Made by a program: the position numbers and the translations under genes. The notes below the pieces were generated by a model. That model searched no databases. It was not told where the DNA came from and worked only from the letters and a program-made list of their open reading frames with translations. Shown in pieces: positions 15,912 through 24,680 of a stretch of 51,877 nucleotides of DNA (positions within the stretch are counted from its first letter, which is position 1; every line of letters begins with the position of its first letter). The stretch is from Lachnospiraceae bacterium (GTDB lineage: Bacteria > Bacillota > Clostridia > Lachnospirales > Lachnospiraceae), in NCBI GenBank assembly GCA_022768745.1, contig JALELK010000006.1:1-51877 (forward strand). Reading direction: 5' to 3'.

Positions 15912-15945
15912 AAGGAAAAAAATGTACGCAGGAAAGGAGCTCCCT

Positions 15946-16755
15946 ATGAGCTTATTATGGGACAATCATATGCACTCTTCTTTTTCAGGAGATTGCGACA
16001 TACCGGCAAAGGAAATGGCTGCCGCCGCCAAAGAAAAAGGGTTGCTTGGCATTACCTTTACTGATCATCTGGATTTAGATTATATGGAGGAACCGGGCTT
16101 ATTTGATTTGGATATTCCGGCATATCTGGACAGTATCCAGTCTCTTGCCCAGACAGAGTCCTCTTCTCTTACCATCCGAAAGGGCATTGAACTAGGTCTG
16201 CAGCCTCAACTCACAAATGTATACAACGAAATACTTTCTTCAAATAATTTTGATTTTGTCATTGGCTCTACCCATGTCATCAATGGATTGGATCCTTATT
16301 ATCCGAAGTATTTTTCCACCAGAGATGAACATACTGCTTTTTTAGAATACTATGAGACAATCCTAAAAAACATACAGGCGTTTCCTAACATTGATGCAGT
16401 AGGTCATCTGGACTATTGCTTCCGATATGGTCCCTACCCGGATGCCGCCTATGACACCTATGGATCCTACGCCGAAATTGTAGATGCAATCCTTTCTTAT
16501 ATAATAAAAAAAGACATAGCTCTGGAAGTAAACTCCGGTTCCTATCGTTGCGGATTAACAGAGCCTAACCCTTCCCTCTCTATTTTAAAAAGATATCGTC
16601 AATTGGGCGGCGCTCTCATTACCGTCGGAGCCGATGCACACACTCCCCGGCATGTAGCCCTGGAGTTTTCTCATCTGGCAGAATTGCTCTTGGACTGTGG
16701 TTTTACGGAGTATGCCGTATTTCAAAATCGTACTCCAACATTTTTTTCTATTTAA
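15946..16755 (+). CDS. PHP-domain phosphatase, histidinol-phosphatase (HisJ/HisK) family
   Basis: The 269-residue protein is a single PHP domain. Trinuclear metal-site motifs are visible: DNHMHSSFSGD near residue 7, TFTDHLD near 39, GSTHVING near 108, GHLDYC near 163 and GADAHTP near 235. Family members remove phosphate from histidinol phosphate in histidine synthesis. No other his genes are near, so the substrate is assigned from family only, and another small phosphoester is possible. The start at 15946 is chosen for AAAGGAG seven bases upstream; the longer in-frame alternative begins at the -35 element of its promoter. It is one of few plus-strand genes here. Confidence 0.85.
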   Translation: MSLLWDNHMHSSFSGDCDIPAKEMAAAAKEKGLLGITFTDHLDLDYMEEPGLFDLDIPAYLDSIQSLAQTESSSLTIRKGIELGLQPQLTNVYNEILSSNNFDFVIGSTHVINGLDPYYPKYFSTRDEHTAFLEYYETILKNIQAFPNIDAVGHLDYCFRYGPYPDAAYDTYGSYAEIVDAILSYIIKKDIALEVNSGSYRCGLTEPNPSLSILKRYRQLGGALITVGADAHTPRHVALEFSHLAELLLDCGFTEYAVFQNRTPTFFSI

Positions 16756-16769
16756 TCATTTATTTTTAA

Positions 16770-16890
16770 ATGCAAAACGAGCCACTCGGGGAGAGTGACT
16801 CGTTTTACAACTTTATGAGACTTACAAAGGATAGAGACTTATGCTTGTATTGGAACAAACCAACACAAGAAGTTCTATGAACTTTTAAGC
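16770..16890 (-). ncRNA. Candidate small RNA of about 120 nt
   Basis: This interval has no gene but reads on the minus strand as an independent unit: a promoter (16926-16898), a start near 16890, a 6-bp hairpin (16870-16884), directly beside it a 10-bp hairpin (16844-16853 with 16860-16869), a single-stranded part with AAGUCUC twice and a pyrimidine-rich AUCCUUUG, then a terminator hairpin (16774-16806). Two positions that would be C-A mismatches on the plus strand become G-U pairs on the minus strand, supporting this orientation. It matches no RNA family I recognise. Confidence 0.5.
16774..16806. terminator. Hairpin terminator between the PHP phosphatase gene and the candidate small RNA
   Basis: Arms AAAACGAG and CTCGTTTT, then one C-A (plus) or G-U (minus) position and a further 5 bp around a five-base loop. 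T residues flank it on both strands, so it can serve the plus-strand phosphatase gene and the minus-strand transcript. Confidence 0.85.
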
Positions 16891-16897
16891 AAGGACT

Positions 16898-16926
16898 ATA
16901 CTATCATGACTTTCTCCTAATGTCAA
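16898..16926 (-). promoter_or_regulatory. Minus-strand promoter of the candidate small RNA
   Basis: TTGACA (16926-16921), 17 bases, TAGTAT (16903-16898). The -35 element lies in the left arm of the palindrome at 16922-16949. Confidence 0.55.
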
Positions 16927-16949
16927 CAAAATAATTCACATTTGTTGAC
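16922..16949. promoter_or_regulatory. Perfect palindrome shared by two divergent promoters
   Basis: Arms GTCAACAAA (16922-16930) and TTTGTTGAC (16941-16949) are perfect inverted copies around a 10-base A/T-rich centre. Each arm contains a -35 TTGAC element, one facing each way. Whether a regulator also binds here is unknown. Confidence 0.55.
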
Positions 16950-17047: not shown

Positions 17048-18373
17048 TTGCAAAGAAGTAAACATCCCATTTACGCTGGTGCCCTCTGTCTTACCCTTTC
17101 CGGTTTACTATGCCGTTTTATCGGTTTTTATTATAAAATATTTTTATCCCGTGCCATCGGTGCAAAAGAACTGGGACTCTACCAGCTTTCTATGCCACTT
17201 CTTGGAATCGGCATTGCTCTGGCAAATTCCGGAATACACACCGCCATCTCCAAATATGTGGCCGGAGCCAGCGCAACCTCAAAGGCAAAAGCGAAAAACT
17301 ACCTGTACACAGGTCTCGCTGTGTCCCTGTCTCTGGGTTTAGGCTACGCCCTGATATGCTTTCAATTAGCAGATTACATTGCCACCTACATTTTTTTTGA
17401 GCCAGCCATTGCCGGGCTGTTAAAAATCCTTGCCTTCTGCGTTCCCTTAGAATGTATCCACGGATGTATCAACGGCTATTATTATGGTTTGCAAAAAGCC
17501 ATCATCCCCTCCTGCGGACAATGTATTGAACAGTTAATCCGAGTGGGATGCGTCTTTGGAATCTACTACCTTTTGCAACAGGAAAATACTCCCTTTACAA
17601 AAACCCATGCCATGTATGGTCTGCTGTTAGGTGAACTGGCTGCCACCCTCTATTACCTAACTGTACTTTCCTTTCAATCACATGAGAAGTGCCATAAACC
17701 AATCAAGGAAAAATTTTTACCGGAGCTGTTTCAAATGGCTGTACCAGTGACGGCCACCCGACTTTCTCTCACCTTTTTAACCAGCTTTGAAAACATAATG
17801 ATTCCTTTGCAACTGGTTTGCTTCGGTTTGAGCAATACCCAGGCTTTATCCATCTATGGAATCTACAGTGGTATGGCTGTGCCAATGGTTTTCTTTCCCA
17901 CCGTACTGTCAAACTCCATAGCCGTTATGCTGCTTCCCTCCATATCCAGAGCGAAAGAAGAGGGGAAAAATTCCTATATCCGCCACAGCGTCTCCCTGGG
18001 ATTTACCCTATGTATGCTCCTTGGTTTTGCCTGTGCCTTCTTCTTCTACTGCTTCGGCGGTTTTATCGGAGAGACCATATTCCATAATCAGGTGGCCGGC
18101 ATTTACATCAAAACCCTTGGATGGTTGTGTCCCTTTCTTTTTCTCGGGGTCACGATGAGCAGCATTCTCAACGGTCTTGGAAACACAAAGGACACCTTTT
18201 TCATCAGCCTCTTTGCCGCCGGCATACGCCTGATTTTTATTATGTTCTTTATTCGGCAATTTGGATTCCGGGCCTTTTTGCTGGGCGTACTTATCAGCCA
18301 AATCACCTCTTCCTTTCTCTCCTATGGAAGACTTGTTTTTATTACACAAAAAGGATCAGACCAAAAGGTCTGA
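17048..18373 (+). CDS. Polysaccharide/lipid flippase of the MOP superfamily (SpoVB/MurJ-like)
   Basis: A 441-residue protein with about 12 membrane helices. The opening LTLSGLLCRFIGFYYKIFLSR, AIGAKELGLYQLSMPL and ANSGIHTAISKYVA segments are typical of SpoVB/YtgP-like flippases, which move lipid-linked oligosaccharides or lipid II across the membrane. SpoVB proper acts in spore cortex synthesis and is usually about 500 residues, so this is a shorter member and the exact substrate is open. The start is a TTG: GAGG lies six bases upstream and an in-frame stop shortly before leaves no ATG. The end overlaps the shared terminator with the EAL gene. Confidence 0.85.
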   Translation: MQRSKHPIYAGALCLTLSGLLCRFIGFYYKIFLSRAIGAKELGLYQLSMPLLGIGIALANSGIHTAISKYVAGASATSKAKAKNYLYTGLAVSLSLGLGYALICFQLADYIATYIFFEPAIAGLLKILAFCVPLECIHGCINGYYYGLQKAIIPSCGQCIEQLIRVGCVFGIYYLLQQENTPFTKTHAMYGLLLGELAATLYYLTVLSFQSHEKCHKPIKEKFLPELFQMAVPVTATRLSLTFLTSFENIMIPLQLVCFGLSNTQALSIYGIYSGMAVPMVFFPTVLSNSIAVMLLPSISRAKEEGKNSYIRHSVSLGFTLCMLLGFACAFFFYCFGGFIGETIFHNQVAGIYIKTLGWLCPFLFLGVTMSSILNGLGNTKDTFFISLFAAGIRLIFIMFFIRQFGFRAFLLGVLISQITSSFLSYGRLVFITQKGSDQKV

Positions 18374-23623: not shown

Positions 23624-23861
23624 AAAAAAACTTCATCTCTATATATTATAGAGACGAAGTTATCCGCGGTTCCACTCTAATTAAATCAGACAAGCTGATT
23701 TCTCTCAAACACTTAACGCGTGTACACGGGCCAAACTACTTTCTTTCACTCAGCCGACTCCCGGACGCACTTTCAAACAAACTCCCTGAAACCGAATCCC
23801 AGCTAATATCGGTTCTCTCTGACAGGTATCCATCCTACTCTTTCCGTTCACTGTCTTTCAC
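23624..23861 (-). promoter_or_regulatory. T-box leader, cysteine specificity
   Basis: On the minus strand the leader shows a stem I with AGTA and CAGAGAG elements, an apical GCTGGGA, and a specifier loop reading GAAAG-TGC at 23769-23767, a cysteine codon. The T-box core TGGAACCGCGG lies at 23664-23675, followed by a 13-bp terminator hairpin with a long T run (23624-23661). Uncharged tRNA-Cys should pair with codon and T-box and disfavour the terminator, raising cysE-cysS expression. Confidence 0.93.
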
Positions 23862-24515: not shown

Positions 24516-24589
24516 TAGCGAGAGAGAGACTTGAACTCTCAACCTCCCGGGTATGAACCGGACGCTCTAGCCAGTTGAGCCATCTCGCC
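24516..24589 (-). tRNA. tRNA-Met (CAU), elongator type
   Basis: A 74-base cloverleaf with a 7-bp acceptor (one G-U), D stem GCTC/GAGC, anticodon loop TTCATAC giving CAU, and T loop TTCAAGT. CCA is not encoded. The sequence around the anticodon (GGTTCATACCC) and the paired first position fit elongator tRNA-Met more than initiator or the lysidine tRNA-Ile. Confidence 0.92.
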
Positions 24590-24607
24590 ATATATAAAAA
24601 GTGTAAA

Positions 24608-24680
24608 TGGGACCTACAGGGCTCGAACCTGTGACCCTCTGCTTGTAAGGCAGATGCTCTCCCAGCTGAGCTAAGATCCC
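24608..24680 (-). tRNA. tRNA-Val (UAC)
   Basis: A 73-base cloverleaf: acceptor GGGATCT/AGGTCCC, D stem GCTC/GAGC, anticodon stem TCTGC/GCAGA with loop CTTACAA (anticodon UAC), T stem ACAGG/CCTGT. CCA is not encoded. It is co-transcribed with tRNA-Met, 18 bases apart. Confidence 0.95.

Follow-up and report, generated by a model that had tools for sequence, protein, structure and literature searches.

The window, the whole stretch of 51,877 nucleotides of DNA from a gut/rumen Lachnospiraceae bacterium that was analysed, very likely contains a real small RNA (sRNA) gene on its minus strand. Homologues are found in six genomes, those of three of the five species of the window's genus (the window's own genome, G000, and the congeners G001 and G003) and of all three sampled species of a second Lachnospiraceae genus. 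The best explanation of the locus is a stand-alone minus-strand sRNA with an anti-Shine-Dalgarno core that would block translation in trans and without Hfq, a reading to which we give reasonable though by no means full confidence. The gene has the traits of a trans-acting antisense sRNA, namely a predicted promoter of its own, an intrinsic terminator, no open reading frame and a conserved pairing region. Within this known kind of RNA it very probably represents a new, previously uncatalogued family.

The locus and its promoter

The features of the locus, in positions of the window, are as follows.

15922..16755, plus strand: PHP-domain phosphatase gene (PF02811, E 1.2e-26), convergent with the sRNA
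16772..16891, minus strand: candidate sRNA gene of about 120 nt, 5' end near 16891/16890 (UGCUU), both ends placed from the promoter and the terminator
16772..16808, minus strand: terminator hairpin, 16 bp, with a U-rich distal arm
16808..16840, minus strand: invariant core of 33 nt, AAGUCUCUAUCCUUUGUAAGUCUCAUAAAGUUG, with two AAGUCUC copies around the anti-Shine-Dalgarno sequence CUAUCCUUUG
16840-16834 and 16823-16817, minus strand: the two copies of AAGUCUC
16832-16825, minus strand: pyrimidine-rich stretch AUCCUUUG
16837..16890, minus strand: 5' structured domain, in which helix P1, GCUUA/UAAGU (16890-16886 with 16841-16837), lies around hairpins 1 and 2
16884-16870, minus strand: hairpin 1, 6 bp, AAGUUC-AUA-GAACUU
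16869-16844, minus strand: hairpin 2, 10 bp, CUUGUGUUGG-UUUGUU-CCAAUACAAG
16898..16926, minus strand: promoter TTGACA-17 nt-TAGTAT, with the -35 box TTGACA at 16926-16921 and the -10 box TAGTAT, with an extended TG, at 16903-16898
16921..16944, minus strand: upstream element CAAATGTGAATTATTTTGTTGACA, a possible operator that takes in the -35 box (16926-16921)
17048..18373, plus strand: polysaccharide flippase-type gene (PF01943/PF01554), divergent from the sRNA

The sRNA gene adjoins and converges on the PHP gene in all six homologues. On its upstream side the neighbour varies: the window has the flippase gene, G001 and G003 have mnmA, and the second genus has an EAL-domain gene. Because convergence on PHP is constant and the gene on the other side is not, we regard the unit as a stand-alone gene and not as the leader or 3' UTR of one particular gene. 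A cis-acting leader (riboswitch, T-box or attenuator) was considered and rejected, there being no downstream gene on the same strand and PHP being convergent in every homologue. Elsewhere in the window an ordinary T-box leader (RF00230, 122.9 bits) lies on the minus strand at 23647-23860, and two tRNA genes are found near it at 24516-24680.

The promoter named in the original prediction is present in the window and in each of the other homologues. A promoter scan recovered it on the minus strand, and returned 9 promoter-like sites against 5.9 expected in shuffles. Such sites are thus common here and their count is within shuffle expectation, so the promoter by itself proves nothing; it is convincing because it is conserved in six genomes. 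TTGACA and a spacer of exactly 17 nt occur in 6/6 homologues, and the sequence of the spacer has diverged. The -10 box takes the forms TAGTAT, TATAGT, TATACT and TATTAT, and TGCTT (UGCUU in the RNA) is found 5-6 nt downstream of it in all six.

The upstream element CAAATGTGAATTATTTTGTTGACA is identical in the three homologues of the window's genus, with one exact site per genome, and only its TTGACA is retained in the second genus. The upstream block CAAATGTGAATTATTTTG is likewise identical across the three species of the window's genus and occurs essentially nowhere else in their genomes; this element may be the operator of a specific regulator. As the operator of a regulon the upstream element was rejected, its genome sites being itself and one site with 3 mismatches in G003. 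An inverted repeat, GTCAACAAA (16922-16930) and TTTGTTGAC (16941-16949), overlaps both the upstream element and the -35 box of the sRNA in the window; the CAAATGTGAATTATTTTG block belongs to this stretch (16922-16949).

Conservation and fold of the RNA

In the alignment of the six sequences, which come from six species and two genera, neither the core AAGUCUCUAUCCUUUGUAAGUCUCAUAAAGUUG (100% identity) nor the 5' end UGCUU shows any change. Between the two genera the PHP protein shows 53-59% identity, and 12/50 to 23/53 of its four-fold degenerate sites are identical (24-43%), which is near saturation. The sRNA is very probably real because its 33-nt core is identical in six species while the adjacent genes have diverged almost completely. 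The same comparison bears on the suggestion that a chance promoter, some hairpins and an ordinary terminator have come together here. The promoter taken alone, within shuffle expectation as it is, would fit such a coincidence; full identity of the core across genera whose neutral sites are near saturation, together with retention of the promoter, leaves it a negligible probability.

The 6-bp and 10-bp hairpins, the double AAGUCUC, the pyrimidine-rich stretch and the terminator hairpin were all found where they had been predicted. It is also correct that in both longer hairpins, the terminator among them, the imperfect position is G-U on the minus strand and C-A on the plus strand. The minus-strand fold has an energy of -48.7 kcal/mol (z -9.2), compared with -34.8 kcal/mol (z -4.9) for the plus-strand fold, and transcription would be from the minus strand. 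Hairpins 1 and 2 had been described as two adjacent hairpins. Both are present in the sequence, but they are not separate, since a GCUU/AAGU helix encloses both, and the minimum-energy fold of the window RNA is a single long hairpin in which the core is tied up. Within the core a weak CUUUGU/AUAAAG hairpin is possible.

The conserved open fold is one in which this GCUU/AAGU helix (P1) closes around both hairpins. RNAalifold and explicit pair counts over the six sequences support P1, an inner hairpin and the terminator. Seven pairs in P1, hairpin 2 and the terminator have changed on both sides and still pair; two of these belong to P1, and the terminator also includes pairs with double changes. 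In the alignment 94% of aligned cells are paired, as against 44-53% in a slid alignment. The covariation, coming from six related sequences, is good but not overwhelming. What close relatives show is the opposite of promoter loss and absent covariation, with the promoter kept in 6/6 and the seven double-change pairs, and these two results strongly support a minus-strand sRNA that has a promoter of its own.

The inner domain differs between species. The window and the second genus have the hairpin AAAGUUCAUAGAACUU followed by a second hairpin whose sequence is unrelated between the genera, hairpin 2 having been replaced. G001 and G003 have a single hairpin, GCUUGCG...CGCAAGU. In the first four species the core is predicted to be hidden in the minimum-energy fold by pairing with the 5' arm, and exposing it costs 6-7 kcal/mol; in G001 and G003 the core is mostly free in the predicted fold and the cost is 1.6 kcal/mol. 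The 5' arm AAAGUUCAUAGAACUU is close to a copy of the core's ideal target, AAAGGAUAGAGACUU. The closed form is only suggestive, because 27-50 of 1000 shuffled arms (3-5%) reach equal self-pairing with the core.

The U-tract of the terminator is short in the window (UUUUGC). The terminator hairpin also scored as terminator-like on the plus strand, and it can therefore terminate the convergent PHP mRNA as well. One might suppose that the transcript acts mainly on PHP, through overlap of the 3' ends, antisense readthrough or a shared terminator, given that PHP is the sole neighbour kept in all six genomes and that the hairpin can serve both directions. The terminator, however, lies between PHP and the core, which is the most conserved part. 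Nor is there conserved pairing of the core with the initiation region of PHP, the energies being about -14 to -16 kcal/mol for the window and for the second genus and -7 to -9 kcal/mol for G001 and G003. We consider action on PHP improbable.

Distribution and relationship to known RNAs

A DNA search of the window's genus gave partial matches in two congeners, G001 and G003, and the DNA downstream of the PHP genes in both holds the complete promoter-hairpin-core-terminator unit. A 24-nt core pattern allowing up to 3 mismatches was run over 397 genomes of the family, a sample that does not include G001, and it matched only G000, G003 and a genome of one further genus, G166. With a covariance model (R1) the sRNA was detected in 3/3 species of this second genus. 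An exact 16-mer scan of 84,980 species returned 59 stretches, and among them the homologues are just the Lachnospiraceae ones that carry the full core. No homologue was found in about 330 other genera sampled. Covariance matches in other genera of the family sample are weak and most are terminators alone, and a wider family was rejected. The congeners G002 and G004, whose genomes are only about 83% complete, are without the sRNA; in both, mnmA and PHP lie close together with no sRNA unit between them.

At the stringency of the pattern search each genome has a single copy, and no copy was found in viral contigs; on these two observations a mobile or multi-copy element was rejected. A short unit, AAAGTCTCAAAAATCTC followed by a terminator, is present in another genus (L100, G230:C30) at a different genomic place, and it is perhaps a very distant relative of the sRNA or else due to chance. 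This stretch, in which AAAGUCUCAAAAAUCUC precedes the terminator, was left out of the homologue count because of its other location and its lack of the core.

An invariant sequence in single copy could also be a DNA site at which the promoter is incidental, for instance an element for replication, segregation or recombination. The signs seen here are those of an RNA, with covarying helices, tolerance of G-U on one strand and a promoter and terminator that are both kept. Moreover the core is no palindrome, and two congeners and all other genera sampled are without it. A DNA site is accordingly very improbable.

One frame of the core reads SLYPL-stop, which is what a gene for a short peptide, or the leader of one, might show. 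No start codon, Shine-Dalgarno sequence or frame is conserved across the six aligned sequences, third positions show as little change as the rest, and we give a peptide almost no credence.

The statement that no known RNA family could be recognised is borne out by Rfam 15. No family matches at the locus at gathering cut-offs, and at permissive thresholds the best scores are 15-19 bits, against cut-offs of 41-115. Hfq (PF17209) was undetected in all six genomes, four of which are only 84-88% complete; the same profile found Hfq in E. coli and B. subtilis as controls. Sequence and literature searches found no earlier description of the sRNA. In gut and rumen Lachnospiraceae, to our knowledge, only a few regulatory RNAs have been characterised, and full-text literature searches turned up none from the group.

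Among the Gram-positive sRNAs, LhrC and RsaE (RoxS) pair with Shine-Dalgarno regions, in many cases independently of Hfq, through short C/U-rich motifs that are repeated and unpaired. The Lachnospiraceae sRNA shares with them its repeated short pyrimidine-rich motifs, but the motif is AAGUCUC/CUAUCCUUUG and not UCCC, and Rfam gives no match to those families.

In anatomy the sRNA is closest to the csRNAs of Streptococcus, which belong to the CiaRH regulon and have two stem-loops with a conserved unpaired anti-Shine-Dalgarno region between them; their definition includes a CiaR direct repeat, TTTAAG-N5-TTTAAG, at the promoter (PMC3091779). Both are stand-alone sRNAs with a 5' stem-loop region, a terminator stem-loop and a strongly conserved anti-Shine-Dalgarno stretch between the two, and both have a conserved motif directly after the first stem-loop. 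This csRNA-like arrangement of two stem-loops with a free stretch is the predicted fold for G001 and G003, whereas the core-hiding fold is predicted for the other four. The promoters of all six homologues are without the CiaR repeat. There is one copy here as against several in csRNAs, the host family is different and there is no sequence match. The Lachnospiraceae sRNA also has a conserved CAU, which lies 3' of the anti-Shine-Dalgarno sequence and therefore would be unable to pair with the AUG of the same initiation region. It is not a csRNA member.

Proposed action and candidate targets

We propose that RNA polymerase starts near 16891 and stops at the terminator hairpin (16808-16772). When the RNA is in its open fold, GCUU/AAGU pairing would shut the 5' domain on itself, and the core would be presented. 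The invariant CUAUCCUUUG, which is complementary to the Shine-Dalgarno-type sequence CAAAGGAUAG, would then base-pair with the ribosome-binding regions of mRNAs encoded elsewhere and block their translation, without Hfq. The flanking AAGUCUC copies could extend the pairing with targets. Since pairing with the 5' arm AAAGUUCAUAGAACUU can conceal the core in four of the six species, a target or factor may have to open the RNA. Antisense translational control of this kind is probably, on the sequence evidence, the main action of the sRNA.

The target search covered about 450 kb of G000 stretches and parts of three relatives. Against 99 initiation regions the core paired slightly more strongly than its shuffles, with a mean of -12.65 kcal/mol compared with -11.16 kcal/mol for shuffled cores, and 8/200 shuffles were as good. 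Near-perfect complements were not enriched for ACAAAGGATAGAGAC (41 matches, 57 in the control), and most matches to TGAGACTTACAAAGG are within open reading frames. Two 15-nt complements and a Shine-Dalgarno-anchored pattern were tried as target finders and rejected, their lists being dominated by sites internal to open reading frames or by generic Shine-Dalgarno sites. Among the neighbouring genes, none of PHP, gap, EAL, flippase and mnmA has a conserved pairing with the core. AUCCUUU is inside the invariant core, which makes its suggested pairing with ribosome-binding sites plausible, but no target passes the shuffled-core control.

That no conserved target emerges would be expected if the core were a protein-binding site and the RNA a sponge, like 6S or CsrB-type RNAs, rather than the carrier of an antisense seed. 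A seed can usually be shorter than the 33 nt that are invariant here, and the two AAGUCUC copies could be a repeated protein site. Yet the core has a clear anti-Shine-Dalgarno stretch, neither a series of GGA loops as in CsrA sponges nor a 6S-like bulged long hairpin is conserved in all six, and Rfam gives no match to such families. We think a sponge rather unlikely, and return to targets of an antisense core.

The top conserved candidate is an uncharacterised gene at L299:14266-15027 (G000:C59), with orthologues at L293:3254-4024 and L292:3566-4312. Its protein (MRISGLDSAGIGTLFSS...) is encoded in the hisF/cheV neighbourhood and has no Pfam match and no convincing PDB match. No other conserved match to the core is as good as the gene's initiation region, CAAAGGAGTGA, for which the predicted pairing is -22.9 kcal/mol in G000 (rank 3 of 360), -21.5 in G003, -18.0 in G424 and -14.6 in G423. 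Orthologue scoring placed this gene first of 104 orthologue groups; it had already been singled out by earlier pattern searches, and shuffled cores equalled the top group in 14/120 trials, or in 6/120 when three or more genomes were required. For the start of cheV (L299:9356, L293 and L292) the predicted core pairing is about -20.5 kcal/mol in three genomes, which represent both genera. The G003 copy of cheV has CAACUUUAU upstream of the Shine-Dalgarno sequence, and this matches the 3' part of the core, AUAAAGUUG. We treat both genes as leads from predicted pairing and not as findings, and any named target is doubtful.

The fullest form of the proposal is a new family confined to two Hfq-less Lachnospiraceae genera, in which a 5' target mimic would keep the anti-Shine-Dalgarno core closed and a true target would release it, the targets being cheV and the uncharacterised gene nearby. 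As a whole this is a long shot; if it were true, cheV and the neighbouring gene as targets would link the sRNA to chemotaxis or motility. A covariance model is now at hand to look for the sRNA in other genomes and in transcriptomes. With its single copy, invariant 33-nt core, promoter and short list of candidate targets, the sRNA offers an entry into sRNA control in Hfq-less clostridia.
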